From Georgenia sp. SYP-B2076 (GTDB taxonomy: Bacteria > Actinomycetota > Actinomycetes > Actinomycetales > Actinomycetaceae), in contig NZ_RXOZ01000034.1 of assembly GCF_003991205.1 (NCBI RefSeq), positions 1 through 64,000 on the forward strand: DNA of 64,000 nt, read 5' to 3'. Both the position numbers and the translations under genes were made by a program. The notes beneath the pieces were generated by a model that searched no databases, had not been told where the DNA came from, and was given only the letters and a program-made list of their open reading frames with translations. Shown in pieces: positions 1-50,275 of this stretch (its first letter is position 1; each line of letters starts with the position of its first letter).

Positions 1-1
1 C

Positions 2-23167: not shown

Positions 23168-23900
23168 GTGCGCGGGTCCACGATCGCCCGGGCGCGCCGC
23201 CGGCGCCAATAGAATCGCCAACCGTGAGGGCAGGTGAGATGAATTCGACTGGAGGTCGCAAGCCGTTCTGCGGCTCCTTGGACCAAGCCCACCGGTACCA
23301 GTGGGCGTGGGGCAGACTCGAACCACCGTGGAGCCGGGTCGCGGCACATTGCGAACGAAACTGGACAAGAGAATGCCCGCGGGTGTGCGTCCTTGCAGGT
23401 CAGCGGCCATGCGGTTGAGCTAGAGGAACTCGAACCCTCGACCTTCTCCCGGTGGGAGGGTTGTTGCTCCGCCCAGCCAAGCCGCCAGTGATTATTAACG
23501 CCAAGGTCCAGAACGGCGGAATCTCGCAGATTTCGGGCCTTCACCGCTACTCTGGCAGACCTGATGACGCGCAATCACAACAGCTCGCGCCTGCCGCACC
23601 CGTGGCAGAACCGCGGCACGCGCCGATTCCGTGGCACAACCGTGGCACGAACTCGTCCGCCGTCTGCGGACGCGTCGCTCGCCTGGATCTGCTGACCGTC
23701 GTCATGAGGGTGGCCCGCGTCGATTACGCGGGCCACAGCACCGACAGGCCGGAGCACGTGCGAGAACGCCGTGCACTGGATGACCCCGGTGACCGACGAG
23801 GAGTACGCCGCGGCCCCGCCCGTCGACGACTGAGACCACCTGGCCAGACGAAGACTCCGGTAACGTCGCCGGCTACGGGCGACTGCTGAGAAGGGGACGG
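23168..23900. other. Left edge of the island: non-coding stretch with att core A and arm repeats
   Basis: No intact gene. 23168-23412 shows nothing recognised. The decayed tRNA-Ala 3' end lies at 23413-23449, arm-like GTGGCA repeats at about 23600-23650, and a hairpin GTGGCCCGCGT-cgatt-ACGCGGGCCAC at 23710-23736. From 23598 the sequence is the left copy of a 500-bp duplication. Confidence 0.65.
23413..23449 (-). repeat. att-like core A: decayed copy of the tRNA-Ala 3' end
   Basis: Read on the minus strand it gives GAAGGTCGAGGGTTCGAG then TTCCTCTAGCTC, matching the T-arm and acceptor end of the tRNA at 50203-50275 with several changes. The rest of the tRNA is absent: beyond the T-arm the sequence becomes an element-type sequence shared with cores B and C (CTCCCGGTnGG...CGCCCAGCCAAG). 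Interpreted as the outer (attR) site of the island. Confidence 0.65.
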
Positions 23901-24097
23901 ATGTACATCACTGCGAAGGTTCGCCACCCCGGCGAGTACGCCCACTGGCAGGGAGCGACCTACCGCGCAGCCGGGTTGCTGAGCGGTGTGGTGCAGCTGT
24001 TCGCCCGGCAGGACGACAGCCCGGGGGCAGGTTGGCGCCGGGAAGTCGACCGCCAGGGCCGGACCGAGTTCACCCGTCGCGTCTCGCTCGACGAGGT
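23598..24097. repeat. Left copy of a 500-bp near-identical direct repeat
   Basis: Aligns without gaps to 40881-41380; by eye I count about seven substitutions. It covers the arm-like repeats, a hairpin and the first 66 codons of an unknown gene. The match stops abruptly at 24097/24098, where integrase sequence begins, so this is a recombination junction. Confidence 0.9.
23901..24097 (+). pseudogene. Truncated 5' copy of the unknown gene at 41184
   Basis: Identical start to the full-length gene at 41184 (MYITAKV, then HPGEYAHWQGATYRAAG) with the same GAGAAGGGGACGG ribosome site. It diverges at 24098, after which the frame runs into antisense integrase sequence to a stop at 24275. The last about 59 residues are therefore chimeric and the product is probably not functional. 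Confidence 0.8.
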
Positions 24098-24528
24098 CGT
24101 GCCACCGTCGACGATCGAGGTGATCCAGTCCTGGCAGACCGCGGTGGTCAACTCCTGCAGCCGATATTGCCAAGCTTCGGCACCAGGTGCGTGCCGAGCA
24201 GCCGCTCATACTCATCGACCGTCTGCGACCGCCGCGGCGGGTTGGGCCACATGGACTGCACGCGCAGCTCGGTGATCCACTGCCGCGCCGCCAGGCCGAC
24301 TCGGCTGTCCGGCTTGAGCTGGGCCGACCCTCTCGGCGCGTTGAGAAGTACGTCGATCTCGGCCTGCACCGCCAAGCGCGCAGCCGGCCCGCTCTTCCGG
24401 TTCCGGGAAACCTGGGTCTCCTCGCCGTCGAATAGCCGAACGCGCACGCGGGCCCGGAACTTGCCGCTCTTGTGCCGCTTGATGAAGATCTCGCCATGCT
24501 CGCCCGGCCGGAGCTTGTCGTGAGCCAT
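24098..24528 (-). pseudogene. Truncated, frameshifted tyrosine integrase (N-terminal part)
   Basis: Starts at ATG 24528 (MAHDKLRPGEHGEIFIKRH) and reads an arm-binding/SAM-like core-binding N-terminus of a phage-type tyrosine recombinase: SGKFRARVRVRLFDGEE, then TVDEYERLLGTHLVPKLGNI. A one-base deletion at about 24155 shifts the continuation (LQELTTAVCQDWITSIVDGG) to another frame. The catalytic C-terminal domain is missing because sequence beyond 24098 has been replaced by the 500-bp repeat. It lies two codons downstream of the excisionase remnant. Confidence 0.8.
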
Positions 24529-24533
24529 GGCGG

Positions 24534-24777
24534 TCACCACCCCGAACCGTTGCCGGACGGTGACTTGTGGTCGGCTGTCGTGGCTCGGGTCTGCAGCCAG
24601 ACGCGGACGTCGGCCTCCTCGAAGAGGAGGTGCCGGCCGATGCCGTACGCCTTGGGGGCGGTGCCGCGTTTGCCCCCAGGTGTGCACGGTGGCGGGCGTG
24701 GTGTGGAGCTTCGCGCAGAGCTCGTCGAGCGTCCACATCGGGGTGCGGTTAAGTGGAGGTTCCTTCTTCTCGCTCAT
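24534..24777 (-). pseudogene. Excisionase/AlpA-type helix-turn-helix gene with one frameshift
   Basis: About 80 residues: MWTLDELCAKLHTTPATVHT (helix-turn-helix), then after one surplus G in a G-run near 24676 the frame continues KAYGIGRHLLFEEADVRVWL to a stop at 24534-24536. The layout (xis immediately before int) is that of actinobacterial integrative elements and prophages. With the extra base removed the protein would be complete, so this may be a real mutation or a sequencing error. Confidence 0.75.
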
Positions 24778-25383
24778 GCCCCTCAGGTCCGCGTCGACCA
24801 CCAGCGACCGTGGTCGTTCATGGGCATCGGCGAGCAGCGGTGATACGCGTAAGCGTGGAATCTCGCGTGGAATCAAGGGTCTCGACGTCCTCTCTGGCGA
24901 GGACTCCCGGGAATGCCGAAGGCCGCTGACCAGGGCTTTTACCCGACCAGCGGCCTCCAAGGAGTGGAGCTAGGGGATTTGAACCCCGACGTTCTCCCGG
25001 TCGGCGAGCCGCCTGACCCGCCCAGCCAAGACAACTGATTGGTCTCACCGAGCCCCAAGATCTCCGCGACATTCCGCGGATCTCGACGCCCTGACGAGAA
25101 GTTTCGCAGACGTTCGCGATGACGCGCAATCGCACGCAAACACGCTCGCTCAACCCGTGGCAGAACCGTGGCATGCGCCGATTCCGTGGCACAACCGTGG
25201 CATGAACTCGTCCGCCGTTGGGGTTATCGCGACGAATGTTCCCGCACGGATCGAAAAGTGCGTCGTCTCAGCCAGTCACCCGGGCCCATAGCGCCCTGAT
25301 ACCTGCGGCGTCGGTATCGGTGCCGGACCAGCACATGGGTGGTGGACTAGTCCCGCGCCTTCCTCCAGCGGTGCCGGGCCGTG
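24778..25383. other. Element junction B: non-coding stretch
   Basis: Holds left arm-like repeats GCGTGGAATC twice (24852-24874), a hairpin AGGCCGCTG...CAGCGGCCT (24920-24956), the att core B (24964-24990), and right arm-like repeats CCGTGGCAG/CCGTGGCAC (about 25154-25205). 25206-25383 shows nothing recognised. Confidence 0.6.
24964..24990 (-). repeat. att-like core B: decayed copy of the tRNA-Ala 3' end
   Basis: Minus strand reads GTCGGGGTTCAAATCCCC then TAGCTCCAC, matching the T-arm and acceptor strand of tRNA-Ala(CGC). Beyond the core it shares CTCCCGGTCGG and CGCCCAGCCAAGAC with cores A and C. Arm-like repeats on both sides make it look like an element-element junction. Confidence 0.65.
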
Positions 25384-26799
25384 TCATGGGTGCTGTCTTG
25401 CCGGGACGCGGTCCACGGTCGCCCCCCGACGTCCCGCGGCATCGAGCGCGACAAGACGTCCGAAAACGGCGCCCTTGCCCAGCGACGTGCCCGTCATGTA
25501 GGCGGCGCCGTGGAATCCCCCAGTAACCTCCCCGACGGCGTACAGACCCTCGATGATCTCGCCATCGATGTCGACCACCGCGCCGCGAGGGCTGATCGTG
25601 ATCCCGCAGTAGGTGGTGGTCATGAGCGACTTCGCCGGATAGGCGTAGAAGGGCGCCTCGCTGATCGGGGTGAGCTCGCCGACGCCGTTGCACAGGGCCG
25701 TGCGCCCGACCTCGTCCTCACCCTGGCCGGCAATCGCCGTGTTGTACCGGGCCACCGTTTCCGCCAGCCCGGCCGGGTCGATGCCGGCGACCTCGGCGAG
25801 CTCCTCAATGGAGCCGGCCTCGTATACGTGGCCGATCTCCTCGAGGGTGTCGATGTCCTTCAGCGGCACCCCGCGGTGGGACTGGGCGCGAACCCGGGCG
25901 TCGAAGATCTCGAAGCCGAGTCCCTCCGGCTGCCCGAGGACCACGCGCCCCAGGGTCTTGTAGTCCTGCGACTCGTCCACGAACCGCTTCCCGGCGCGGT
26001 TCACGATGATGGCGCCCATGTAGTAGGCAGTGAGGAGCTCGTGGAACTCCTCCCCCGTGTCGGGGTGCGAGCCGTAGGTGCCGGAGACGAAGGACATGTC
26101 CGCCATGCCCGCGCCCAGCTTCCACGCCATCTTCAGGCCGTCGCCGGTGTTGCCCTTTCCGCCGTACGGGATGGCCGCGAGCTGCTCGGGCGCGAAGGTC
26201 TTCAGCAGGTCCGTGCCGCGCGAGAATCCGCCAGAGGCCAGGACGACGCCGCCGCGTCCGGTGAACAGCCTCTCACCGTTCGGGGTCTGGGCACCGACAC
26301 CGGTGACCGTGCCCACGCCGTCGCGCACCAGCCGCACCGCCCGGTGCTCCAGGCGCGTCTCGCCGCCGGCCGCGGTGAAGTCCCGGTGCAGCGTCGCGAG
26401 CACCTCCTTGATGACCGAGTTGTGGCTTCGGCGGGCGGACTGTCCCGAGCTGATCTCGACCTCGCGGAACTCCACGCCGTGGGCCTTTAGCCAGCGGTAG
26501 GTCTGCTCCTGGTTGTCCAGGTAGGTCTGCAGCAGGGCCCGGTCGTTGAGGTACTCCCCCACCTCGAGCAAGTCCCGAAGGAACAGCTCGGCCGAGTCCT
26601 CCACACCTGCAGCAGATTGTTCCTCGGTCCCGGAGAACGCGAACCAGCCCCCGCTCATCGCCGACGAACCGCCCAGCGTGTCCGTCTTCTCCAGCAGGAC
26701 GACGGACAGTCCAGCTTCCGCCGCCGTGGTCGCCGCCGTCTGGCCGGCGATACCAGAACCCACGATGACTAGGTCGAACACGTGCTCTGTCGCGGTCAT
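25384..26799 (-). CDS. FAD-dependent oxidoreductase, fumarate/urocanate-reductase-type flavoprotein
   Basis: 471 residues. Seen: the FAD site FDLVIVGSGIAGQTAATTAA near residue 8, EKTDTLGGSSAMSGGWFAFS, a central cap region, an Arg-rich substrate-site-like stretch, and the C-terminal GLYAVGEVTGGFHGAAYMTG then GTSLGKGAVFGR. These are hallmarks of the FAD_binding_2 flavoprotein family that oxidises or reduces activated C=C bonds. ATG 26799 is preceded only by a weak ribosome site. It is divergent from the P450 gene and probably acts in the same oxidative pathway; the substrate is unknown. Confidence 0.85.
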   Translation of the reverse strand: MTATEHVFDLVIVGSGIAGQTAATTAAEAGLSVVLLEKTDTLGGSSAMSGGWFAFSGTEEQSAAGVEDSAELFLRDLLEVGEYLNDRALLQTYLDNQEQTYRWLKAHGVEFREVEISSGQSARRSHNSVIKEVLATLHRDFTAAGGETRLEHRAVRLVRDGVGTVTGVGAQTPNGERLFTGRGGVVLASGGFSRGTDLLKTFAPEQLAAIPYGGKGNTGDGLKMAWKLGAGMADMSFVSGTYGSHPDTGEEFHELLTAYYMGAIIVNRAGKRFVDESQDYKTLGRVVLGQPEGLGFEIFDARVRAQSHRGVPLKDIDTLEEIGHVYEAGSIEELAEVAGIDPAGLAETVARYNTAIAGQGEDEVGRTALCNGVGELTPISEAPFYAYPAKSLMTTTYCGITISPRGAVVDIDGEIIEGLYAVGEVTGGFHGAAYMTGTSLGKGAVFGRLVALDAAGRRGATVDRVPARQHP

Positions 26800-27124
26800 G
26801 CCACGCGCTCGCCGGAGGAGCGGGAGGAACTGTCTGAAACCGTTGCGCGGATTGCCCGACCGCGCCCCCGCCAACTGCTGGTCATCAAGGACTCCTTCGT
26901 CAGATGAGGTCGTGTGGTGGGGCCCGCCTACTCCGGCACGGACGCAGTGACCGCCATCCACTCCGCCGGATCGAACTCTCGGCCGGCGACCGAACAAGCC
27001 CGACCGTACATTTCCGACCTCCACCGACACGGCTGCTTTTCACCGTGAGGAAAGCCCTGGCAATCGCCCGTCCCCGACCGGAAAGTGAGGGTCATCAGCG
27101 TCGATTGCACTAAGGAGCCTCGCC
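26800..27124. other. Divergent promoter region between flavoprotein and P450 genes
   Basis: No gene recognised. It must hold both promoters, but no convincing -35/-10 pair or operator could be fixed. A short in-frame tail at about 26820-26905 (+ strand, ending SFVR-stop) could be a gene remnant but is too short to name. Confidence 0.4.
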
Positions 27125-28366
27125 ATGAGCCTGGACAGCCCAGAACGAACCTTGACCTTTCCTCTCGCCAAGCCTGAGGGTGACCCGCTGGGGCAGCCGG
27201 CCGAGTTCGCAGAGCTCCGGAGTAAGTGCCCCGTCTCCCGAGTCGACCACTGGGACGGCACCAGGCCCTGGCTCATCACTCGGTACGACGACTGCAAGAC
27301 TGCAGCGCTGAGCCACGACCACCTCAGCAACAACCCCGAGTTCGCCGGGTACCCCTCGGGTAGCCCCGCCCTCGCCGCGACGATCGACAAGGAGCGCAAC
27401 CTCCGCACGATGGACCCGCCGGAGCAGCTGACCGAGAAGGCGATGATCCAGCGCGGGCTCTCGCGCCGCGCCGTCGAGAAGATCCGACCGGTCGTGCGCG
27501 CGTACGCGCAAGAGCTCGTCGACGACTTTGATCCCTCGGGCGTGGTGGACGTCGTCGACAGGTACACCCGCTTCATCCCGGGCTACGCGATCTGCGAGCT
27601 GCTCGGAGTGCCGTACGACGATCGTGACTTCTTCGCGGAGCAGGGCGCCCTGTTCCTCTCCGGGGACTCGACCGCCGAGGTCGCGGCCGCGGCCGGCGAG
27701 AAGCTGACGGCCTACCTCGAGGGTCTCGTCCAGGCCAAGATCGACGCTCCCACCGATGACATGCTCGGTCACCTGGTCTCCAAGCACCTCCTCAAGGGTG
27801 CCATCACGCGTGACCAGGTGATCGGCTATGCGCGCATGCTGCTGGCGGGAGGATTCGAGTCCACCGCGAACGCGATGGCGCTGAGCATCCTCGCGCTGCT
27901 GGACAACCGCGACCAGCTGGCGGATTTCGTCGAGAATCTCTCCGACCGCCAGTACGTCGCCAACGCGGTGAACGAGCTCTTGCGGTTCACCTCCCCCAAC
28001 CAGACGTCCCAGCGGCGGGCGGTCAAGGCCGAGATCACCATCGGGGACCAGCTGCTCTCCGTCGGGGACGGCGCCATCATCGCTAACGCCTCGGCCAACA
28101 AGGACGAGACGAAGTTCCCCGACCCGGAGAAGCTCGACCTGCGCCGCGCGAATGCCGCGGACCACCTCGCGTTCGGGTTCGGCCCCCACCAGTGCATCGG
28201 GCAGCTCCTGGCCCGCGCTGAGCTCGAGGAGTCTCTCGAGGTCCTCTTCGCGGCCTGGCCGAAGATGACGCGGGCGACTCCCATCGAAGAGATCCCCGTG
28301 GGTGGGCCCCACGAGATCACGTTCCGCATCCGTCAGCTGGACGTGGCGCTCAACCCGACGGTGTAG
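27125..28366 (+). CDS. Cytochrome P450 monooxygenase
   Basis: 413-residue soluble bacterial P450. Seen: the I-helix AGGFESTAN, the K-helix ExxR in NELLRF, and the haem-binding loop FGFGPHQCIGQLLARAELE with the Cys ligand. The acid-alcohol pair that delivers protons to O2 reads Glu-Ser instead of the usual Asp/Glu-Thr; a hydroxyl is still present. The nearby reductase (30400) is the likely electron donor. ATG 27125 follows AAGGAGCCTCGCC. Class and substrate are not determined; the cassette suggests hydroxylation or O-dealkylation of a carboxylate or aromatic. Confidence 0.93.
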   Translation: MSLDSPERTLTFPLAKPEGDPLGQPAEFAELRSKCPVSRVDHWDGTRPWLITRYDDCKTAALSHDHLSNNPEFAGYPSGSPALAATIDKERNLRTMDPPEQLTEKAMIQRGLSRRAVEKIRPVVRAYAQELVDDFDPSGVVDVVDRYTRFIPGYAICELLGVPYDDRDFFAEQGALFLSGDSTAEVAAAAGEKLTAYLEGLVQAKIDAPTDDMLGHLVSKHLLKGAITRDQVIGYARMLLAGGFESTANAMALSILALLDNRDQLADFVENLSDRQYVANAVNELLRFTSPNQTSQRRAVKAEITIGDQLLSVGDGAIIANASANKDETKFPDPEKLDLRRANAADHLAFGFGPHQCIGQLLARAELEESLEVLFAAWPKMTRATPIEEIPVGGPHEITFRIRQLDVALNPTV

Positions 28367-28388
28367 CCGGCGCCAGAGTCGCGAGTCG

Positions 28389-28412
28389 GGCCCCGGGCGA
28401 GAGCCCGGGGCC
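28389..28412 (+). terminator. Terminator of the P450 gene
   Basis: Perfect 10-bp stem GGCCCCGGGC (28389-28398) with GCCCGGGGCC (28403-28412), GAGA tetraloop, followed by GGACTGTTTG. Confidence 0.8.
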
Positions 28413-28514
28413 GGACTGTTTGCTTCCCAGGCATGGGTTCGCACGGTCGTGGCGTCCGTCTCCGGGCGCGTTGTGCGCGCTCCGGTCGACGATGACTGCG
28501 CGCATACAACAGAT

Positions 28515-28546
28515 GGCGGCAACGGCCCTCCCGGGCCGTTGCCGCC
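28515..28546. terminator. Second hairpin, probably bidirectional terminator for P450 and IclR genes
   Basis: Perfect 14-bp stem GGCGGCAACGGCCC (28515-28528) with 28533-28546 and a TCCC tetraloop, between convergent genes. Confidence 0.8.
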
Positions 28547-28576
28547 ACCTCTCAGCTGCTACCGCGCCACTCGGCG

Positions 28577-29356
28577 TCAGACGGAAGCGGCCAGTTGGAC
28601 CTCTCGGTGCTGGAAGAGGTCCGCCTCGATCCTGTTGCGCGCGCCGATAACCCTGCCGATGAGGCCGTTGCGCACGTGCGCCTCGAACCGCTTGGACGGG
28701 CTCGCGACAGCCAGCGCCCCCACCCAACCGTCGTGCCCCTGCAGCGCAACGCCAACGCCACAGATACCCCGCTCAGCGGACTGCACGTTCGCGGCGAAGC
28801 CCTGGCGCCGGATGAGGCTGAGCTCACGCAGCAGCCCTGCAATGTCCACGGTGTGCTCCTCCGCGCGGAATAGGCGCGCCACGCTCACCTCATCCAACAG
28901 CGCCAGCATCGCCTTCCCGCCGGCCGTCTTGTACGCCGGGAGCACGGCGCCGCGGCGGTCCCCCACACAAGACGTGTGGCGCCCTTCCACCGTGCTCAGG
29001 AACCGGACGTCCAGCCCCACACGGATCATCAGGCTGACCGACTCCCCTGTCTCAGCGGCCAACTCATCCATGTACGGGCGGACGGCGTTCTTGACCGACA
29101 GCGCCGCCGTCGGGGCTGCCGCCTTGGCACCGAAAGCCGGGCCGGCAAAGTAGCGACGCCCGTCGTTCTGCACGGCGTAGCCGCGGTACACGAGCATGGA
29201 CAGGAGGCGATGCGCCGTCGACGGCGAGACGTCAAGCTCGTGCGCAGCGTCGAGAAGCCGGATCGAGCCCGTGTCCCGGAGCAGCTGGAGGAGCTGCAGG
29301 ACCTTGTCCACGGACCCGAGGACGTACGCTGGCTTCTGGTAAAGATTGTTCTCCAC
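28577..29356 (-). CDS. IclR-family transcriptional regulator
   Basis: 259 residues. Seen: winged helix VDKVLQLLQLLRDTGSIRLL with ELDVSPSTAHRLLSMLVYRGY, and a C-terminal effector domain with AGGKAMLALLDEV and CGVGVALQGHDGWVGALAV. It sits between the P450 and its reductase gene, transcribed with the reductase but separated from it, and probably controls the cassette. I chose GTG 29356 since AAGGA lies seven bases upstream; ATG 29362 overlaps that site and GTG 29383 has no ribosome site. Confidence 0.87.
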   Translation of the reverse strand: MENNLYQKPAYVLGSVDKVLQLLQLLRDTGSIRLLDAAHELDVSPSTAHRLLSMLVYRGYAVQNDGRRYFAGPAFGAKAAAPTAALSVKNAVRPYMDELAAETGESVSLMIRVGLDVRFLSTVEGRHTSCVGDRRGAVLPAYKTAGGKAMLALLDEVSVARLFRAEEHTVDIAGLLRELSLIRRQGFAANVQSAERGICGVGVALQGHDGWVGALAVASPSKRFEAHVRNGLIGRVIGARNRIEADLFQHREVQLAASV

Positions 29357-29413
29357 GGTCATTCCTTCTCGCGGCGTTGACACAGGTTGCTTCGGTGCGC
29401 TGATCGGACCGGG

Positions 29414-30400
29414 CTAGAGATCGAGCACCAGGCGGGGGCAGCGGGCTCGCGAGACGCAGATCATCATCGTTTCGCAGCTGGCGCGCTCGTCCTCGTCGAG
29501 TAGCGAGTCACGGTGGTCCGGTTCGCCGTCGATCACGTCGGTCTCGCAGGTGCCGCAAGTTCCGGCGCGGCACTGGGACTCGACGTAGATGCCGGCGTCC
29601 TCGACCACCTCGAGCACGGAGCGCCCGACGGGCACCGTCAGCTCGAGCCCCGAGCGCTCCAGGACCACCTCGAACTCGTGGTCCTCGACTGACGGGTCGA
29701 GCTCCTTCGGCACGAACCGTTCCACGTGCAGGCGCGGTGCTGAGTCGCCGGTGCAGAGCACCTCGAGGGCGCCGAGCAGGCCCGCCGGGCCGCAGCTGTA
29801 GATCTGCGTGGACGGGCTGCACGCACTGACGAGGCGGGCGAGGTCCAGCAGGCCGGTCTCATCCTGCGGGTGGAGTGCGACCAGGTCTCCGTAGAGAGCC
29901 TGCAGCTCGTCACGGAAGGCCATCGAGCTCTGCGTGCGCCCACCGTAGACCAGGCGCCACGGTGTCCCGCTCGCCTGCGCCGCCCGGAGCATGGGCAGGA
30001 TGGGAGTGATGCCGATGCCGCCGGCGATGAAGAGATACTCCTCGGCCGGCGCGAGGCTGAAATGGTTGCGGGGCCCGCGGACCTCGACGATGTCGCCGAC
30101 GGCCAGGTCCTCGTGGACGTGGCGCGACCCACCCTTGCCGTCGGGCTCGCGCAGCACCGCCACCTCCCAGTAAGGAGCGTCAGGATCGCCGCAGAGCGAG
30201 TACTGGCGGACGAGGTCCGGCCCGAGGCGCAGGTCGATGTGCGCGCCCGGCTCCCACGTGGGAAAAGGCTCGCCGACCGGATCCAGGACGAGACGGATGG
30301 TATCGGCCGCTACAGGCTCCTTCGCCACCACCCGGGCGTCGAGGGTCACCTCGACGGATCGGTCGGTTCGTCGCGCCGTGGCAACGCTGCCAACTGACAT
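29414..30400 (-). CDS. Phthalate-dioxygenase-reductase-type oxidoreductase (FMN/NAD/[2Fe-2S])
   Basis: 328 residues in three modules: an N-terminal flavin domain (AHIDLRLG, RQYSLCGDP binds FMN), an NAD(P)H domain (FIAGGIGITPILPMLRAAQ, YSCGPAGLLGAL), and a C-terminal plant-type [2Fe-2S] ferredoxin with Cys ligands in CRAGTCGTCETDV plus a fourth Cys in MMICVSR. It passes electrons from NAD(P)H to an oxygenase, here most simply the P450 at 27125; PDR-type partners for P450s are known but less common than for Rieske oxygenases. ATG 30400 with AGGGAG seven bases upstream. No Rieske oxygenase is in the window. Confidence 0.92.
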   Translation of the reverse strand: MSVGSVATARRTDRSVEVTLDARVVAKEPVAADTIRLVLDPVGEPFPTWEPGAHIDLRLGPDLVRQYSLCGDPDAPYWEVAVLREPDGKGGSRHVHEDLAVGDIVEVRGPRNHFSLAPAEEYLFIAGGIGITPILPMLRAAQASGTPWRLVYGGRTQSSMAFRDELQALYGDLVALHPQDETGLLDLARLVSACSPSTQIYSCGPAGLLGALEVLCTGDSAPRLHVERFVPKELDPSVEDHEFEVVLERSGLELTVPVGRSVLEVVEDAGIYVESQCRAGTCGTCETDVIDGEPDHRDSLLDEDERASCETMMICVSRARCPRLVLDL

Positions 30401-30585
30401 TGATCTGCTCCCTACATGTTCGGAACGACGCCGGATCGTCCTGCGTCACCGTGCGAGTGGGGCTCGCGCGACCTTGCCTCATTCGCGAGGCCCCACTTCG
30501 ACGTCGATCGCCACCAGATACCTGGAGCAATCGGTCGAACCAAGACAATGAAGCCACACGGAGTGTGTCTTGCACAACATGACGC

Positions 30586-30597
30586 TAGGGTTGTTCT
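30586..30597 (+). promoter_or_regulatory. Leaderless -10 box of the IclR gene at 30598
   Basis: TAGGGT (30586-30591) followed by six bases and the GTG start. The segment TTGCACAAC...GTTGTTCTGTGC (about 30570-30602) overlaps it and carries ACAAC/GTTGT inverted halves, a possible IclR-type autoregulatory site. Confidence 0.55.
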
Positions 30598-32462: not shown

Positions 32463-32494
32463 GGTTGGTCGCGCGAGAACCCCGCGCGAGGCCA

Positions 32495-32555: not shown

Positions 32556-32614
32556 TCTACGTGTGGTGGACGTTTCGGCGTCGCGCCAGGCGCGGTGAGC
32601 GCTTCGTACCCCAC

Positions 32615-42140: not shown

Positions 42141-42146
42141 CGGCGA

Positions 42147-42365: not shown

Positions 42366-42414
42366 AAAAGTGCACGTCCTCCCGGCGTCACGAGCGGCGA
42401 GGGCTCCGCGACGG

Positions 42415-42743: not shown

Positions 42744-42771
42744 CCTTTTCCAGGCTCGGCGGACGGGATTC

Positions 42772-43235
42772 TCAGGGGCGGGTCCGGACGGGGTGCCGGC
42801 TCACGATCGACACCCGGTTGTAGATGTTGACTGCGATGGCCGCCGAGGCCAGGCGGAGAACTGCTCGTCGGTCAGGGGCTCACGTGCCCGGGCGAGCTCC
42901 GCGGTGCGGGGTCTCCTCCTCCGGCAGGGACGTCACCGCCTCCGCCACCCGCAGCGCCGCCATCTCGACCTTCCGAGAACAGCGCGGTGTCGCGCCAGGC
43001 CGACAGCACGGCAAGGCGCTGGGCCGTCTCGCCCGCTTCGAGAGCGAGCCGGGTGTGCATGTCGAGGCGGTAGGCGCACCCGTTCAGCTGGAGGCCCGCA
43101 CGTTCATGAGCTCGACGAGCGTGCCCGGCAGGCCCGCCCCGTCTGTTGCGGCGCGGACCTTGAGCACAAACGCGTTGAGCGACATCCAGGCCGTGGGTCC
43201 GACATGTCCAGGTCGAGGTCCTCCGGTGTGCTCAT
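42772..43235 (-). pseudogene. AhpD/carboxymuconolactone-decarboxylase-family gene, multiply frameshifted
   Basis: Across three frames the minus strand gives AWMSLNAFVLKVRAATDGAG, LVELMNVRASQLNGCAYRLD, MHTRLALEAGETAQRLAVLS, and AAIAVNIYNRVSIVSRHPVR to the end. This is the alkylhydroperoxidase AhpD-type fold. The active-site CxxC has decayed to CAYR (second Cys replaced by Arg). Several indels make it non-functional. It is next to the MarR gene, typical company for peroxidase-type genes. Confidence 0.78.
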
Positions 43236-43290
43236 CGTGCTCCCGCTGCCCGTTCCTGCGTCTCTGCCCTCGTCGGACTGCGGTTTGGAG

Positions 43291-43785
43291 CTAGTTCGTC
43301 GTTTGCTTGTTGGTTCGGTAGAGCTCGGTCATGGCATCGGCAACGAGGCGGGCCCGGTCCGGTCCGAGGACCTCGATGAAGTGGGAGCGGTTGATGTCGG
43401 CGACGAGGTGAGCAAGCTCGGCGGCGAGCTCGGTGCCGGCCGGCGTGAGCTCGAGGAAGGTGACGCGCCGGTCCTCGGCGCACGCGACCCGGGCTGCGAG
43501 GCCTCGGCTGACGAGCTTGTCCGCGATCTTGGTGTAGCCGCCGCTGGTGAACGAGGCCGCCCGGGCGAGCGTCGTCAGCGGCGCACGGCGCTCCACCTTG
43601 CGGTGGAGGCTGAGCAAGGTCTCGGCCTCGGCCTCGTTGAGGTTGACAGCGCCCTTGATGGCACTGTGTAACCGCCGGTTGGTCACCTGGAAGCCCTTGA
43701 TGACCCGGCCCCAGAGCTCGACGGCGGTGATGTCGTCGATGTCGGCCGCGGACTCGTGGGTGGTCTCGATCGTGGTCTTGGCCAT
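43291..43785 (-). CDS. MarR-family transcriptional regulator
   Basis: 164 residues. Seen: a helical start (AVELWGRVIKGFQVTNRRLH), NLNEAEAETLLSLHRKVERR, LTTLARAASFTSGGYTKIAD (recognition helix), the wing VACAEDRRVTFLELTPAG, and a C-terminal dimerisation helix. It has a well-formed promoter (43820-43848), and repeated AAAGTA elements around it suggest autoregulation. It may also act on the PQQ-dehydrogenase/SDR promoters 1.8 kb away, which carry a palindrome. Confidence 0.88.
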   Translation of the reverse strand: MAKTTIETTHESAADIDDITAVELWGRVIKGFQVTNRRLHSAIKGAVNLNEAEAETLLSLHRKVERRAPLTTLARAASFTSGGYTKIADKLVSRGLAARVACAEDRRVTFLELTPAGTELAAELAHLVADINRSHFIEVLGPDRARLVADAMTELYRTNKQTTN

Positions 43786-43819
43786 TGGGGGCTCCGTCCT
43801 ACAGGTGGCTGAGACACTC

Positions 43820-43848
43820 AATTTACTTTGTGCGGAAGATACTTTCAA
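43820..43848 (-). promoter_or_regulatory. Sigma-70-type promoter of marR
   Basis: On the minus strand TTGAAA (43843-43848) and TAAATT (43820-43825) are separated by exactly 17 bases. AAAGTA occurs twice inside this segment, a possible MarR site. The region is AT-rich against a GC-rich background. Confidence 0.75.
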
Positions 43849-43930
43849 GCGAGTTAAGCAGTGTCGGCTGTCACCTGGCGTGCGGGGCGCCACCATGTGC
43901 GGAGAAGGGCCAGACGACGATGTCGAGGAT

Positions 43931-43980
43931 CGGCACGGGCCCCGGAGCAGCCGTTCCTGGCTGGTCCTGGGCCCGTGCCG
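43931..43980 (-). terminator. Terminator of the PQQ-dehydrogenase gene
   Basis: CGGCACGGGCCC (43931-43942) pairs with 43969-43980 exactly; an inner CAGCC/GGCTG stem sits in the 26-base loop, giving a compound hairpin past the stop codon of the minus-strand gene. Confidence 0.7.
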
Positions 43981-44026
43981 TCCACAGCTTCCCCCCGAAG
44001 CTGCGGCAGCCCGTCGAGCGGAGTGC

Positions 44027-45481
44027 TCAGTTGCCGGTGTAGGTGAAGGTGAGCAGGGCGCCAGGGTTCTCCAGCTCGGTGGTGGAGTCACCGTCCGTGC
44101 CACGCGCGAGGCCGCCGGAGTCGGTGGCCACGATGATGGTGGCGCCGTCGGGGCTGGTGGCGGTGTCGCGGTAGCGGTTGACCGAGCGGAACAGCCGCTG
44201 GGACTCGCCGACCTTCTCGCCGTCCTCGGTCAGCTGCACCCGGAAGAGCTCGCCGCTCTTGAGGGTGGGCATGAGGAGGGAGTCCTCCCAGCCCGGGATG
44301 GCCGTCTGGTCGTAGTGGTCAAGGCTGGAGGGCGCGATCGTCGGGTAGCAGATGAAGTACAGCCCGGAGGGGTCGCAGGCGTCGCCCTTGAAGTCGTGGT
44401 TGTCGGCGACGGTGAAGTAGGTGCGCAGCGGCTCGACGAAGTTGGCGGCGGTGAAGTCATGCTCGGCGTACTGCGGAACCTCGTCGGGGATGTTGAACCC
44501 GTCGTAGGGCAGCGTGGTGCCGGCGGACCAGTCACCGAACACGTAGGCGCTGTCGTCCTTGTACCCGGAGACGTAGGGCCAGCCGTAGTTGCCGCCGGCC
44601 TTGAGGAGGTTGAGCTCGTCGTCGCCCTTAGGGCCCTGCTCCGAGGAGTAGAGCTTGCCGTTCGCGAAGGTCAGTCCCTGAGCGTTGCGGTGGCCGTAGG
44701 TGAAGACGTGACTCTTGACGCCGTCGAGCTTGGGGTTGTCCTTGGGGATGGACCCGTCCAGGTTCAGGCGCAGGGTCTTGCCCTGGTAGGCGGTCCAGTC
44801 CTGGGCGTCGACCTCGTCCTGGGTGGGCAGGCGCTGCGCCTCGTTGGGCTTGTAGGCGTTGAGGTCCTGGTTGTTCCCGCGGTCGCCGATCGTGTAGTAG
44901 AGCGTCTTGTCGGGCCCGAAGACCAGGCGGCCGGAGTTGTGGTCGTCGCTGGCCGGCATGCCCTCGATCAGGGTCGTCGGGTCGACCAGGGTGTTGGCCT
45001 TGGCGTCGTAGATGTAGCGAACGATCCGCTGACGACGGTCGAGCTCCTCCCCCGCGGGGCCGGTGCCGCCGCCGTCGTAGGTGTAGGAGAGATAGACGTA
45101 CTGGTTGTTCTTCTTGTTGTCCTTGAGCAGGTCGGGGTGCAGGGCCATGCCCAGGAGCCCGTCCTGCTCCCCGGCCGTGGCCAGGACCTCGTCGATGGTC
45201 AGGATCGTGGTCTTCTCCCCGGTGGCCGGGTCGACCTGGGTGACCCGGCCGGCGGTGCGCTCGGTCAGCCACAGCTTCCCGCCGGGGCCGTAGAGCACCT
45301 CGAACGGGTTCTCCAGTCCGGTCGTGAGCACCTTGCGCTCGAAGTCCACGGTCACGGCCGGGGCGGTGGTGGTGCCGCTGCCGCCGTCGCTGGGCGGGGC
45401 CGCGTCAGCGAACGCCGGGGCCGCCAGGCCGAGCAGCGAGACAGAGGCGAGGGCGGTAACGAGCGGGCGATTGCGTCGCAT
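44027..45481 (-). CDS. Secreted soluble PQQ-dependent glucose/sorbosone dehydrogenase-like protein
   Basis: 484 residues with an N-terminal signal peptide (RPLVTALASVSLLGLAAPAF ending ADA). The mature part is a six-bladed beta-propeller of the GSDH family and follows soluble glucose dehydrogenase of Acinetobacter closely: GEQDGLLGMALHPDL, DHNSGRLVFGPD, YTIGDRGNNQ, GKTLRLNLDGSIPKDNPKLD, YGHRNAQGL, SEQGPKGDDELNLLKAGGNY and GWPYVSGYKDD. These include the catalytic His and the PQQ and Ca2+ contacts. It would oxidise aldoses outside the membrane using PQQ; no PQQ synthesis genes are in this window. ATG 45481 with GAAGGTG upstream. Confidence 0.9.
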   Translation of the reverse strand: MRRNRPLVTALASVSLLGLAAPAFADAAPPSDGGSGTTTAPAVTVDFERKVLTTGLENPFEVLYGPGGKLWLTERTAGRVTQVDPATGEKTTILTIDEVLATAGEQDGLLGMALHPDLLKDNKKNNQYVYLSYTYDGGGTGPAGEELDRRQRIVRYIYDAKANTLVDPTTLIEGMPASDDHNSGRLVFGPDKTLYYTIGDRGNNQDLNAYKPNEAQRLPTQDEVDAQDWTAYQGKTLRLNLDGSIPKDNPKLDGVKSHVFTYGHRNAQGLTFANGKLYSSEQGPKGDDELNLLKAGGNYGWPYVSGYKDDSAYVFGDWSAGTTLPYDGFNIPDEVPQYAEHDFTAANFVEPLRTYFTVADNHDFKGDACDPSGLYFICYPTIAPSSLDHYDQTAIPGWEDSLLMPTLKSGELFRVQLTEDGEKVGESQRLFRSVNRYRDTATSPDGATIIVATDSGGLARGTDGDSTTELENPGALLTFTYTGN

Positions 45482-45901
45482 CGAGATTCACCTTCCAGGT
45501 AGTGGCCCCGGCGAGCCGGGACCGGGTCGAACCGAGGGCCCTGCGCCGAGCTCAGCGCAGGCAGGACCCCTGGTGCTCCACGGGGAAGCAGAGCCCGGCG
45601 AACGTAACCACGCGACGACGTAGTTGACAATTTAACTACCCGCTCGTAACGGGCCCCTCGGGTGTGGGGTTTCCCACCGCAGGCAAGCCACCGAACCTGC
45701 CACACCAAAGCGCACCGCCATGGCGTTGGTCACAGCGGACCTCGCACTTTCGGCGCCAAACGGCCGCTTGGCAACGGTTGCCCGCAACTCCTCACCCCGG
45801 CGTGCGATCCGCACCCCTTGCACGGGACGGCTTTCTCGGATACATCTTGCTCGCAAGCAATTGGCCTCGAAGGGGCCTCACGTCTGGAGAAGGGCAAGAA
45901 C
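45482..45901. other. Divergent promoter region, PQQ dehydrogenase / SDR operon
   Basis: Holds the operator and both promoters at about 45603-45652. The remaining sequence up to the SDR start shows no gene and no further motif I can support. Confidence 0.6.
45620..45639. promoter_or_regulatory. Palindromic operator overlapping divergent -35 boxes
   Basis: GTAGTT-gacaattt-AACTAC (45620-45639) is an inverted repeat with six-base arms. On the plus strand it contains TTGACA (45624-45629), on the minus strand TTGTCA with a TTACGT 17 bases further on. One bound regulator would cover both promoters; the MarR protein at 43291 is the nearest candidate. Confidence 0.65.
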
Positions 45902-46663
45902 ATGACTCAGCGGGTACTCGTCACGGCCGGCGCCAACGGCATCGGCCTGGCCATCGCCAAGGCCTACGCGGCCGGAGGCGCCAGGGTGCACATCGCCGAC
46001 GTGAACGCCGAAGCCGTCGAGGCGGTCGTCTCTGCGAACCAGAACATCACCGGCTCGGTCACCGACGTCAGCGACGGTGCGGCGGTGGACGCCCTGTTCG
46101 CCGACGTGAAGCGGGAGCTGGGCGGGCTGGACGTCCTGATCAACAACGCGGGCATCTCCGGTCCCACCGCCCCGGCGGAGGAACTGGCCTTCGAGGACTG
46201 GAACGCCGTCGTCAACGTCAACCTGCACGGCACCTTCCAGGTGACCCAGCGCGCGATCCCGCTCCTGAAGCAGTCGGACGCCGGATCCGTGGTGACCATG
46301 TCCTCGCTCGCCGGGCGCTTCGGCTACCCCAACCGCATCGCGTACTCCACCACCAAGTGGGCGCTGGTCGGCTTCAGCAAGACCCTCGCGCTCGAGCTCG
46401 GTGAGTTCGGCATCACCGCCAACACGATCCACCCCGGCGCCGTCAAGGGACCGCGCATGAACGCCGTCCTCGAGGGCCGCGCGCAGGCCAACGGCACCAC
46501 CGTCGAGGAGGAGACCACCAACGCGCTGAACAACCAGTCGATCAAGGACTTCATCGACCCGGCCGACATCGCCGCGCTGGTCTTGTTCCTCACGGGCCCG
46601 CACGGACGGACCATCTCCGGCCAGCTCTTCCCGATCGACGCTGACTCGAAGGCGGCGGCATGA
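45902..46663 (+). CDS. Short-chain dehydrogenase/reductase (SDR)
   Basis: 253 residues, classical SDR: VLVTAGANGIGLAIAKAYAA with the glycine-rich NAD(P) site, an acidic residue at IADVN suggesting NAD over NADP, LINNAGISGP, Ser in VVTMSSLAGR, the catalytic YSTTK, and IHPGAVKGPRM. First gene of a four-gene operon with MFS transporter, 3-hydroxyacyl-CoA dehydrogenase-like and FMN-reductase genes. ATG 45902 has GGAGAAGGGCAAGAAC upstream. The stop overlaps the next start (ATGA). Confidence 0.9.
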   Translation: MTQRVLVTAGANGIGLAIAKAYAAGGARVHIADVNAEAVEAVVSANQNITGSVTDVSDGAAVDALFADVKRELGGLDVLINNAGISGPTAPAEELAFEDWNAVVNVNLHGTFQVTQRAIPLLKQSDAGSVVTMSSLAGRFGYPNRIAYSTTKWALVGFSKTLALELGEFGITANTIHPGAVKGPRMNAVLEGRAQANGTTVEEETTNALNNQSIKDFIDPADIAALVLFLTGPHGRTISGQLFPIDADSKAAA

Positions 46664-47970
46664 CCTCCGTCGACCTCCGCAACGCTGCCGGACACCGCGG
46701 GGATACCGTCGCGGAGGCCCCACGGCCCTCACCTACCGACATCGCACCGCCGGCCGGACCCGCGCCGCAGCCCTGGCGCGGCCGCATCATCTACTTCGTC
46801 GGCCTCATCCTCCTGGCCCTCTCGCTGCGCCACGCCGTCACCGGCATCTCCCCGCTGCTGACCCGCATCGGCGAGGACGTCGCGCTTGGCGCCGCCGGCA
46901 CGACCATCCTCGGCATGCTGCCCACCATCGCGTTCGGCCTGGCCGGATTCATCGCCCCCGCCCTGATCCGCCGGTTCGGGCCCGCACGGATCGCCGTCGT
47001 CGCCCTCGGCCTGGGCGCCGCCGGCACCATCGCCCGGGTCCTGGGCGACTCCGCCGTCGGCTTCCTCGGGTTCGGCCTCCTCGCGCTGTTCGGCATGGGC
47101 ATGGGCAACGTCGTCGGCCCACCCCTGGTCAAGCGGTACTTCGCCGACCGGCAGGCCACGGCCATGACCGTGCTCACCCTCATGACCCAGGCCGGCGCCA
47201 CCATCCCCGCGATGCTCGCCGTGCCCATGGCCGACGCAGCCGGCTGGCGCACCTCGGTCGGCTCCTACGCGGTTTTGATGCTGCTCGCCGCGCTGCCGTG
47301 GACCCTCGCGGCCGTGCGCTCGGGCAGGGAAGGCCAGCCGGGCGCGACCGCGGCCGCCACGCCGGCCCAGAAGTTCGGCGCACGGAAGCTCTTCACCAAC
47401 CCGGTCTCCCTCGGCGGCGCGATCTTCTACAGCATGGCCGCCCTGAACACCTACGCCATGCTCGCCTGGCTGCCCACCATCTTCCAGGCACAAGGAGCCA
47501 GTGAAGCCGCAGCGGCCGGGATGTACTCGATCTACACCTTCCTGACCCTGCCGATGGCGCTGATCACCCCGATCATCGCCTCGAAGCTGAAGAACCCCCT
47601 GTGGCTCGGCGTGCTGTTCCCCATCGCCTCGGTCGTCGGCTATCTCGGCATCATCACCGCCCCGTCCGCGGGCATCGTCTGGGCCTTCATCGCCGGCATC
47701 TCCGGCGGGGCGTTCCCCTTCGCGATGGTGATGTTCAACCGCCGCACCCGCACCCCCGAGGGCTCGGCCGCGGTCACCGGGTTCAGCCTGGGCATCGGCT
47801 ACGCCTTCGGCACCGTCGGCCCGTTCCTGGGCGGCCTGCTGTCGAACCTCACCGGCGGCTGGACCCTCCCCCTGCTCGTCTTCGTCGCCTCCGCCGCGGT
47901 CATGGTCCTCGGGACCGCGCTCCTCAGCCGCGACCGCAAGTTCGAAGACACCCTCGCCGCGGCCCGATAA
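46660..47970 (+). CDS. MFS transporter, CynX/NimT family
   Basis: 436 residues, about 12 TM helices: LILLALSLRHAVTGISPLLT marks the CynX/NimT branch also seen at 8089, though the usual NLRP is LSLR here. A central loop with GREGQPGATAAATPAQKFGA precedes the second half. Coupled to the SDR by a four-base overlap, so uptake of a small organic acid feeding the dehydrogenases of the operon is plausible. Confidence 0.87.
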   Translation: MTSVDLRNAAGHRGDTVAEAPRPSPTDIAPPAGPAPQPWRGRIIYFVGLILLALSLRHAVTGISPLLTRIGEDVALGAAGTTILGMLPTIAFGLAGFIAPALIRRFGPARIAVVALGLGAAGTIARVLGDSAVGFLGFGLLALFGMGMGNVVGPPLVKRYFADRQATAMTVLTLMTQAGATIPAMLAVPMADAAGWRTSVGSYAVLMLLAALPWTLAAVRSGREGQPGATAAATPAQKFGARKLFTNPVSLGGAIFYSMAALNTYAMLAWLPTIFQAQGASEAAAAGMYSIYTFLTLPMALITPIIASKLKNPLWLGVLFPIASVVGYLGIITAPSAGIVWAFIAGISGGAFPFAMVMFNRRTRTPEGSAAVTGFSLGIGYAFGTVGPFLGGLLSNLTGGWTLPLLVFVASAAVMVLGTALLSRDRKFEDTLAAAR

Positions 47971-48013
47971 CCCGCACCGCCACGGCCCAAGAAGTCAGAA
48001 GGACGTGACAGAC

Positions 48014-48952
48014 ATGACCAACACCTCCCGCACCGTCGCCGTCGTGGGCACCGGCGTCATCGGCGCCAGCTGGACCGCGTACTACCTCTCCCGCGGCTTC
48101 ACCGTCGCCGCGGCCGACCCCGCCGAGGGCGCCGAGGAGCGCCTACGCGCCTGGGTCGAGCAGTTCTCGCCCGCGCTGGCGACCCTCGGCCTGGCCGACG
48201 GCGCCTCGACGGCGAACCTCCGGTTCACCTCGTCGATCGCCGACGCGGTCCGCGACGCCGAGTTCGTTCAGGAGAACGGGCCCGAGCGCCTCGAGGTCAA
48301 GCGGGCCATGCTCGCCGAGATCGAGTCCACCCTGGCGCCGAACGCGATCATCGCCACCTCGTCCTCGGGCCTGCTGATCTCCGATGTGCAGGAGGGCATG
48401 CGCCACCCCGAACGTATGGTCCTCGGGCACCCGTTCAACCCCCCGCACCTCATCCCGCTCGTCGAGGTCCTCGGCGGCCGGCAGACGTCGGCCGAGAACG
48501 TCGACAAAGCCATCGCCTTCTACGACGAGATCGGCAAGAAGCCCATCCGCATCAACAAGGAGATGCCCGGCCACGTCGCCAACCGGCTTCAGGTGGCGCT
48601 CTGGCGCGAGGCGTTCCACCTCGTCGAGAGCGGGGTGGCCAGCGTCAAGGACATCGACACCGCCATCGCCAACGGACCCGGACTGCGCTGGGCCCTGCTC
48701 GGCCCGTTCCTGAACCTGCACGCCTCGGGGGGCGACGGTGGCATCACCCACGTCCTCGAGCACATCGGCCCCGCCCAACGGGAGTGGGCCCGCACCCTCG
48801 GCGAGTACCCCGAGACCGACGGCTACATCCCCGTCATGGCCGAGGGAGTCGAGGCCGAGCTCGACGGCTACGACTGGGCCGAGACCCTCCGCACACGCGA
48901 CGAACTGCTCCTCGAGCTCCTCGCCGCCAAGAACGCCACGCAACTGCCGTAA
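48014..48952 (+). CDS. 3-hydroxyacyl-CoA dehydrogenase-like (L-carnitine dehydrogenase type)
   Basis: 312 residues. Seen: VAVVGTGVIGASWTAYYLSR (NAD site), FVQENGPERLEVKRAMLAEI, IIATSSSGLLISDVQEGMRH, LGHPFNPPHLIPLVEVLGG with the catalytic His, MPGHVANRLQVALWREAFHL, and a C-terminal helical domain. It lacks the enoyl-CoA hydratase part of fatty-acid oxidation complexes; single-domain relatives include L-carnitine dehydrogenase and L-gulonate dehydrogenase. I chose ATG 48014, ten bases after GAAGGA; GTG 48005 lies too close to it. Confidence 0.87.
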   Translation: MTNTSRTVAVVGTGVIGASWTAYYLSRGFTVAAADPAEGAEERLRAWVEQFSPALATLGLADGASTANLRFTSSIADAVRDAEFVQENGPERLEVKRAMLAEIESTLAPNAIIATSSSGLLISDVQEGMRHPERMVLGHPFNPPHLIPLVEVLGGRQTSAENVDKAIAFYDEIGKKPIRINKEMPGHVANRLQVALWREAFHLVESGVASVKDIDTAIANGPGLRWALLGPFLNLHASGGDGGITHVLEHIGPAQREWARTLGEYPETDGYIPVMAEGVEAELDGYDWAETLRTRDELLLELLAAKNATQLP

Positions 48953-49029
48953 CCGGCACGTCACCCCTGTGCACTGAACGGCGGGCACTGAACCCGTCGA
49001 CGAACGAAGCATCAGAAAGAGAAGACAGA

Positions 49030-49617
49030 ATGACCAAGATCGCCATCGTCACCGGCAGCGTCCGCCCGGGCCGCCAGAGCCTGAACGTCGCCAACTGGGT
49101 CAAGTCCATCGCCGACCAGCGCTCCGACGCCGAGTTCGAGGTCGTCGACATCGCGGACTACAACCTGCAGGTGTGGGCCGAGGCCACCCCGCCTTCCTAC
49201 GGCCCCGGCGAGGGCGTCGAGGGTCGCGCCTGGGGCGCCAAGATGGCCGAGTTCGACGGCTACGTCTTCGTCGTCTCCGAGTACAACCACTCCATCACCG
49301 GCGCCCTGAAGAACGCCCTGGACTACGTCTACGGCCAGCTCAACAATAAGGCCGCCGCGTTCGTCTCCTACGGCTCCGCCGGCGGCGCCCGCGCCGTCGA
49401 GCACCTGCGCGGCATCCTCTCGGAGATGCAGGTCGCCCACGTGCGCAACGCCGTCCTGATGTCCCTGTTCACCGACTTCGAGAACTTCTCGGTCTTCACC
49501 CCGACCGAGCCGGCCACCGCCGCCGTCGAGCCCATGCTCGACCAGCTCCTCGCTTGGACCAAGGCTATGGAGGGCGTGCGCGCCGGTCAGTTCTCTCCGG
49601 TGGGCGCCAACGCCTGA
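49030..49617 (+). CDS. NADPH-dependent FMN reductase (flavodoxin-like)
   Basis: 195 residues: IVTGSVRPGRQSLNVANWV with the FMN-phosphate loop, FVVSEYNHSITGALKNALDY over the flavin ring, and KAAAFVSYGSAGGARAVEHL. Small cytosolic NAD(P)H:FMN reductases of this type supply reduced flavin or reduce quinones. Last gene of the SDR operon, 77 bases after the dehydrogenase; its terminator is 41 bases downstream. Confidence 0.92.
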   Translation: MTKIAIVTGSVRPGRQSLNVANWVKSIADQRSDAEFEVVDIADYNLQVWAEATPPSYGPGEGVEGRAWGAKMAEFDGYVFVVSEYNHSITGALKNALDYVYGQLNNKAAAFVSYGSAGGARAVEHLRGILSEMQVAHVRNAVLMSLFTDFENFSVFTPTEPATAAVEPMLDQLLAWTKAMEGVRAGQFSPVGANA

Positions 49618-49658
49618 GTGGCTTCAGCCTGATCCCTAGAATCAGGTCTGCCGTCGAG

Positions 49659-49688
49659 GAGGGCGGCCCGGCATTCCGGGCCGCCCTC
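49659..49688 (+). terminator. Terminator of the SDR-MFS-dehydrogenase-FMN reductase operon
   Basis: Perfect 13-bp stem GAGGGCGGCCCGG (49659-49671) with 49676-49688 and a CATT tetraloop. Confidence 0.88.
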
Positions 49689-50202
49689 TCGTCCCCCAAC
49701 GTCAAAGGGCGACAACAGAAAATCAGCAAGAGTGTTGAGTCGCCGAGCTCGCGGACCCCAGCACCGCCTGCGATCTCGCCCCCTCCGAGCTCAACACTTC
49801 CCTCGTCGCCAAAACCGGACCTCTATGACGAGCAGGCCGTACGCGCCCTCGAACAGCGTCCAGCGGGCGCCCCAGCGTGACATCCGCCCAACCGGAGGCG
49901 GCGGTAAGCAGAGTAACTGCGAACGCCATGACCACCGCCGTCACCGGCGAACTGACGAACGGAGGACCGAACCGGCCCCGACGGGACACCACGACTCCAT
50001 CGACTACTTCGGCGCCGACGCCGCACAGCGCGGGACGATCGTTGAATGTTTGACTCGGCGGGCGGATGGAGTCCGTCCCCGGGGGTGCGACCCCGGGATA
50101 CGTGGAATATTCCACGCGTCAGACCTTGATTGCGGTTCGAAACCCGGCAGAGACGAAGGGCCTCTGATCAGCGTTTCCGCTGGTCACAGGCCCTTCACCG
50201 GG
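49689..50202. other. Right edge of the island: non-coding stretch
   Basis: No gene recognised. It contains the 16-bp palindrome CGTGGAATATTCCACG (50101-50116), whose half site matches the left arm-like repeats of cores B and C, and the tRNA terminator-like hairpin at 50159-50194. Confidence 0.6.
50159..50194 (-). terminator. tRNA-Ala terminator-like hairpin
   Basis: GGGCCTCTGATCAGCG (50159-50174) and CGCTGGTCACAGGCCC (50179-50194) form a 16-bp stem with two mismatches and a short TTTC loop, just downstream of the tRNA on its strand. A similar segment follows att core C. Confidence 0.7.
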
Positions 50203-50275
50203 TGGAGCTAGGGGGATTCGAACCCCCGACCTTCTCATTGCGAACGAGACGCGCTACCAACTGCGCCATAGCCCC
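50203..50275 (-). tRNA. tRNA-Ala (anticodon CGC)
   Basis: 73 bases on the minus strand. Acceptor GGGGCTA pairs with TAGCTCC (one G-T); D-arm GCGCAGTTGGTAGCGC; anticodon loop TTCGCAA at 50238-50244 with anticodon CGC (50240-50242 on the complement); T-arm GGGGGTTCGAATCCCCC; discriminator base A. CCA is not encoded. It decodes GCG, and its 3' end is the sequence repeated at the three att-like cores. Confidence 0.95.

Follow-up and report, generated by a model that had tools for sequence, protein, structure and literature searches.

The window analyzed here comprises the first 64,000 nucleotides (positions 1-64,000) of contig C34 of the 4.28-Mb genome of Georgenia sp. SYP-B2076, and the system in question is a tRNA-Ala(CGC) gene within it together with the sequence to its left. 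The window's genome is labelled G000 and its eight relatives from the same genus G001 to G008. Three decayed copies of the tRNA 3' end (designated A, B and C) accompany the intact gene in the same orientation, and their arms are common to integrase-bearing relatives. The region is very probably a decayed accretion array, in which mobile elements were stacked behind one another at the 3' end of the tRNA gene. The attachment (att) features of the array are as follows.

50201-50275, minus strand: tRNA-Ala(CGC), the integration target (ARAGORN); its 3' 36 nt (50201-50236) form the core, on the attL side of the array
50101-50200, plus strand: left (integrase-side) arm adjoining the tRNA gene, with one imperfect CGTGGAAT box (50101) and a hairpin; 86% match to the left side of C
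40690-40953, plus strand: core C (35/36 to the tRNA) with right arm, an attP-like junction (self-comparison, att profile, ungapped match)
40614-40689, plus strand: left arm of C, with two GCGTGGAA boxes (self-comparison)
24963-25225, plus strand: core B (two single-base deletions) with right arm (self-comparison, att profile)
24853-24962, plus strand: left arm of B, with two GCGTGGAATC boxes and a hairpin (self-comparison); the same arm occurs in G002 and at two G008 cores
23413-23670, plus strand: core A (31/36; variant T-stem) with right arm (att profile, ungapped match)
23310-23412, plus strand: left arm of A, of a second type common to G002 and G008 cores

In each of the eight relatives, 74 or more of the 75 nt of the tRNA gene align at 100% identity. 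By eye, the core extends from the anticodon stem to the tRNA 3' end, the usual arrangement where tyrosine integrases use tRNA genes. Ungapped matches to the 36-nt tRNA 3' end score 35/36 for C (at 40690) and 31/36 for A (at 23413), compared with a best of 25/36 and a mean of 22.2 in 200 random Markov-1 sequences of 64 kb searched on both strands. The ungapped score of B, 22/36 at 24963, is at chance level taken alone, as two single-base deletions, seen by eye, interrupt the match; B is identified by its match, together with its arm, to C (24964-25218 versus 40691-40946; 262 columns, 78%, E 5e-49). The self-comparison suggested in a preliminary description of this DNA also aligned A with C (23413-24097 versus 40690-41380; 691 columns, 90%), A with B (23414-23663 versus 24964-25218; 72%), and the left side of C with the tRNA side (40643-40725 versus 50152-50236; 86%). 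The resulting segments measure 1,550 bp (A-B), 15,727 bp (B-C) and 9,511 bp (C-tRNA), in agreement with the 1.6, 15.7 and 9.5 kb proposed.

The sequences flanking the cores indicate that B and C are attP-like junctions, as had been proposed, since each core has both kinds of arm. Left boxes (GCGTGGAA) are paired at B (24853/24865) and C (40614/40626), and four boxes, spaced 11-18-11, lie in every right arm (A, B and C). The arms are conserved for about 220 bp beyond the tRNA part (att profile), and the right arm of B is less like those of A and C than the latter are like each other. Junction B (24100-25217) matches a contiguous integrase/core/arm junction in G008 at 87% over 1,122 columns. Left-type repeats had also been ascribed to the tRNA side, which has the single imperfect box but no repeat pair. 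No integrase or excisionase gene lies beside this arm, and no family integrase was found in C-tRNA.

Comparison with the relatives accounts for the polarity of these arms. In all eight, the tRNA gene has the same right neighbor, a SepX/GlpR-like gene (name below the curated cut-off). The left flank in G006 continues directly into the tRNA gene, i.e., the site is unoccupied, while in G007 11.4 kb of additional DNA separates this flank, which ends in a 35-bp copy of the tRNA end, from the tRNA gene, where the alignment picks up again, i.e., the site is occupied (15000-16623 in G006 versus 10719-12373 in G007, and 16589-18000 versus 23777-25229; overlap 35 bp). At its tRNA end, the 11.4-kb insert encodes a tyrosine integrase; it also encodes a TrwC relaxase, a transposase and a sodium/proton exchanger. 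Both the tRNA-adjacent arm and the arm past the outer core therefore arrive with the element, which upholds the earlier proposal of stacked site-specific insertions and the polarity claimed for them.

A search for the core in other strains, also suggested beforehand, showed that this site is a hotspot across the genus. An att profile (six seeds, three runs, E 0.01) run over 25 stretches picked from earlier searches gave 30 matches. Cores other than the tRNA gene numbered three in G000, one each in G001, G004 and G007, seven in G002 (one being a truncated tRNA-like copy), three in G005 and four, spread over about 102 kb, in G008; these counts are lower bounds because the profile was not run over whole genomes. 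A whole-genome DNA search gave one more short core match in G002 (C21:7508), and neither method found extra cores in G003 or G006. Extra cores are thus present in seven of the nine genomes, on the tRNA gene's own contig in G000, G001, G004, G007 and G008 and on other contigs in G002 and G005. The array shows same-orientation elements split by attP-like junctions, as expected of an accretion array; an unoccupied site exists for the hotspot in the G006/G007 pair and for the window only as a scarred site in G003.

A full-length, open integrase of the family lies beside the tRNA gene in five of the nine genomes (G002, G004, G005, G007 and G008), each time accompanied by an excisionase-like gene, and full-length copies within the genus match at 63-89%. 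G008 has a second full-length integrase at a core 28.5 kb away; compared with the G002 integrase, the two in G008, at two cores of one array, show 89% and 70% identity. The stretches from G004, G007 and G008 contain homologues of TrwC-type relaxases, and those from G002 and G005 homologues of type IV coupling proteins (T4CP). Among 121 genomes sampled from the taxonomic family, the integrase was matched at E 1e-60 or better in five, all of this genus, one match being the window's own fragment. Separately, a scan of genome contigs matched one named locus, in Georgenia subflava. A terminator resembling the one in the G006/G007 flank lies beside the tRNA gene in G001 (L022, ~17270-17527) and one G008 core (L030, ~6353-6662), and we take the sequence at these two places to resemble the end of an IS481-type transposase.

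The remnants and cargo of the elements in the window are as follows.

24537-24945, minus strand: excisionase remnant, frameshifted (HTH_17 type in relatives; compared with intact relatives)
24101-24540, minus strand: tyrosine integrase remnant, residues 1-147 of ~455; the frame changes near residue 124, and the catalytic domain is absent
24097-24100, no strand: deletion scar between right-end homology and integrase homology (sequence comparison)
24963-40689, no strand: segment B-C, 15.7 kb (Pfam)
40690-50200, no strand: segment C-tRNA, 9.5 kb (Pfam/NCBIfam); cluster homologous in G001
40954-42140, plus strand: right-end region of the C-tRNA element with an open reading frame (ORF) at 41184-42140; truncated copy at A, 90%

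Right-end homology ends at 24097 and integrase homology starts at 24100, so A-B appears to be one element whose middle was deleted. Full-length relatives of the integrase remnant match Phage_integrase, and other matches to this integrase in the window's genome are more distant (33-53%). A Pfam scan of 39 distinct window ORFs, some overlapping or spurious and 35 lying in 23.4-50.2 kb, found no integrase, relaxase or secretion family; the integrase remnant itself went undetected, so the scan may overlook short fragments. When four transfer-type proteins from G007 and G002, two excisionases and the integrase profile were compared with the window, only excisionase and integrase matched, as the remnants at B; no homologue of the four transfer-type proteins was found in the window, and no family integrase outside 24.1-24.5 kb. 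The array appears to be dead by its own means, with one 147-residue integrase fragment and a frameshifted excisionase left. Integrative and conjugative elements (ICEs) and integrative and mobilizable elements (IMEs) have a functional integrase of their own, of which the window retains residues 1-147 only. Att sites with both arms are present at B, C and the tRNA gene (where the left arm has one box only), and integration and transfer genes have been lost; segments B-C and C-tRNA thus fit cis-mobilizable elements (CIMEs) left by accretion, as judged from their sequence.

The two segments differ in cargo. B-C encodes an FAD-dependent oxidoreductase, a partial P450, two IclR regulators, a ferredoxin reductase, a glyoxalase-type protein, a SnoaL-like protein, an epimerase, a TRAP transporter, a TetR regulator and an FMN-dependent dehydrogenase. 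C-tRNA encodes a weak MarR-like regulator, a PQQ-type glucose/sorbosone dehydrogenase, an SDR protein, an MFS transporter, a 3-hydroxyacyl-CoA dehydrogenase and an FMN reductase. Homologues of the C-tRNA cargo are clustered in G001 (C7:54-64 kb, 76-88%), and the sugar dehydrogenase of this segment is matched at 90-91% in both G002 and G004 and at 76% at another locus of the window's own genome. The FMN reductase gene (49030-49617) has an 84-90% counterpart in all eight relatives and an 89% copy elsewhere in its own genome (C1), and it would be a second, imported-looking copy.

Where the island ends on its outer side is a separate question, to which these features are relevant.

15216-23175, plus strand: cassette encoding an M24 peptidase, a hydantoinase/caprolactamase-beta-like subunit and an NCS1-like permease (NCBIfam scores below curated cut-offs); accessory
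14272-14278, no strand: edge of homology to the MFS-gene flank of G003 and G004; an element-type arm comes next in both, and then the tRNA gene in G003
12112-14088, minus strand: MFS/CBS transporter gene, beside the tRNA gene in G003
6563-7762, plus strand: Nramp-type gene, a left marker near the hotspot in G006 and G007

The preliminary description placed a three-layered island at 23.41-50.2 kb, with A as the chromosomal attR, having a right-hand arm only, and everything to its left as backbone. This model is very improbable. The GCGTGGAATC boxes are indeed not present at A, which has a full right arm, and no core was found to its left. However, 23310-23413 aligns at 75-79% with the left arms of G002 and G008 cores; A carries its own left arm, of the second type, and so is also a junction rather than the final attR, with at least one further layer outside it. 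Moreover, the permease left of A is present in two of the eight relatives (at 3.21 Mb in G008 and on a contig other than the tRNA gene's in G001), was not matched at E 0.001 in the remaining six, and lies beside the tRNA gene in none. The DNA of 15216-23175 is found at 92-96% at 3.2 Mb in G008 and at 76-82% on C34 of G001, and no tRNA was called in the fetched stretches around it (L054/L052; L055). Positions 16297-23175 are 95.5% identical to the G008 locus, compared with 74-88% for the chromosome right of the tRNA gene, which suggests recent transfer. The hydantoinase region left of A is, on these comparisons, accessory as well. Sequence left of 23.41 kb had been expected beside the tRNA gene in relatives; instead, it is sequence left of 14.28 kb that adjoins it in G003, where 12040-14278 is matched at 91.6%, ending 64 bp from the tRNA gene.

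Gene order in common with G006 and G007 extends to about 9.3 kb. The GC content is 73.8% at 1-9300, 69.6% at 9300-14278, 67-70% from 14278 to the tRNA gene and 76.2% beyond it. By gene order and GC, we infer an outer edge at 9.3-14.28 kb, more likely towards 9.3 kb, that no core marks, and the island is predicted to span 36-41 kb and hold at least four layers. The MFS gene occurs as remnants past the outermost G008 core and on G001's tRNA contig and is whole on a separate G004 contig. In G003 and G004, an element-type arm directly follows the MFS flank (51 bp at 92%; 44 bp at 95% to G004's own tRNA-side arm). The window has no such arm there, and on this comparison the MFS/CBS gene may itself belong to the oldest layer as cargo. 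The Nramp marker of G005 shares a contig with the tRNA gene (L050; L024), about 117 kb from it and in a relative orientation opposite to the window's, which suggests an inversion or other rearrangement.

It could also be argued that the region is one large element, its internal tRNA-like cores being segmental duplications of its end and not separate integrations. A and C have 690 bp of right end in common at 90%, as duplication would predict. However, the left arms fall by eye into three types (A; B; C and the tRNA gene), the right arm of B diverges from those of A and C, cargo differs per segment, and distinct integrases at two cores of one array are seen in G008, all of which makes a single element very improbable. 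Chance similarity, or duplicated tRNA fragments without a mobile element, has a negligible probability: other tRNA genes of the genome do match the core weakly, but the random maximum falls well below the scores of C and A, the arms are conserved beyond the tRNA, and B retains integrase and excisionase remnants.

The favored reading, an accretion array, suggests the following history. An integrase would recombine attP with the tRNA gene, restoring the tRNA and leaving a core behind, and later arrivals would enter the core at the tRNA gene or an internal core, creating the attP-like junctions B, C and A. In the lineage of the window, deletions may then have taken the integrase and transfer genes, with a 1.55-kb two-ended relic (A-B) and two integrase-less cargo segments of CIME type as their residue. 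At least one more layer would lie outside, within ~9.3-23.4 kb, its recognizable outer core lost. The greater wear of the cores away from the tRNA gene (35/36 for C and 31/36 for A, and deletions in B) is consistent with elements entering on the tRNA side; we infer the order of insertion rather than observe it, because three of A's differences also occur in G002 cores. The segments would now be movable only if an incoming related element provided integrase and transfer functions.

Several points weigh against this reading. The tRNA gene of G001 has a G006/G007-like flank though its core sits 12 kb away, which the order of events leaves unexplained, and the arrays of G002, G004 and G005 are split over contigs. 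G003 has an element-type arm between MFS flank and tRNA gene and is therefore a scarred rather than a virgin site, and the arm of G003 and G004 was not found in the window after 14272 (14273-14400). The att profile matched nothing from 9 to 23.3 kb and thus gave no outermost core; the case for an outer layer is made by the left arm of A together with GC content and gene order.

Core A raises the question of where its variant sequence came from. Three G002 cores have a variant T-stem in which a G-C pair is changed to A-T on both sides; core A has the same variant plus a further change that breaks another pair (both by eye), and in it a left arm of the second type meets a right arm of the first. 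It is conceivable, if doubtful, that two lineages of elements, one of which was bred on another tRNA allele, cross-recombine in the array, which would collect congeners' ordinary chromosomal operons and re-export them when a new integrase arrives. The 15-23 kb cassette (G008 3.2-Mb locus) and the C-tRNA cargo (G001 C7 cluster) are the operons to which this idea points. An origin of the variant in another intact tRNA found no clear support: at up to two mismatches in the nine genomes, the pattern had no matches apart from att cores, tRNA-Ala(CGC) and a single truncated tRNA-like copy in G002, and the exact variant core had no match in viral contigs. The G002 copy (L044, 5696-5791) has the variant core and an anticodon region reading CAC by eye, 11.5 kb from another variant core; ARAGORN called it a 96-nt tRNA-Gln(CTG) with an oversized variable arm, which we take to be a misread remnant. 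The tRNA-Ser(GGA) of the window's genome (C21; L006; L007 6904-7039) was set aside, a related integrase being absent from its 9.4-kb contig; a hairpin flanking it faintly resembles the left arm of tRNA-Ala (74%, E 2e-4). A close phage source was likewise rejected (integrases 32-35% in the best 10 of 31 records and all 31 below 60%, versus 63-89% within the genus), as was a close plasmid source (one record, 34%, against the same range).

The structure is well supported and ordinary in kind, yet larger and more layered than first described, and the corrected edge places the hydantoinase cassette within the accessory region. Among the matches listed for Georgenia literature on integrative elements or genomic islands, no title concerned this array. 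The mechanism by which stacked elements build gene islands is already known. In the CIME scheme, capture by decay is followed by accretion (PMC5704250); the window array likewise has integrase-less segments that keep their att ends, stacked at one site after integration and decay, and it differs in its actinobacterial host and its own integrase lineage. At a Streptomyces tRNA-Arg gene, actinomycete integrative and conjugative elements (AICEs) and defective AICEs have accreted, with one to three elements and an old remnant (PMC9513070), and tandem AICEs occur at tRNA genes in Frankia and Streptomyces avermitilis (PMC3218068). The Streptomyces stacks are similarly piled at one tRNA gene between direct repeats and vary among strains. 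Those stacks consist of AICEs, whereas some Georgenia relatives have a TrwC-type relaxase or T4CP, and no transfer gene was found in the window segments; FtsK/SpoIIIE-type translocase, Rep and Int, the AICE genes, had no match in the 39 window ORFs, and 19 ORFs scanned in relatives, a minority of those in their elements, included TrwC and TraG/T4CP but no FtsK. The ssrA islands of Dehalococcoides, 15 of 31 without an integration module (PMC3146451), are also tandem catabolic islands bounded by direct repeats of the 3' end of a small-RNA gene, with a serine recombinase and ssrA in place of the tyrosine integrase and tRNA-Ala of the window. What Georgenia adds to these systems is that the process is traceable across related species, as a genus-wide case of metabolic-gene pile-up at a tRNA hotspot in high-GC actinobacteria, in unoccupied, single, multiple and dead states.

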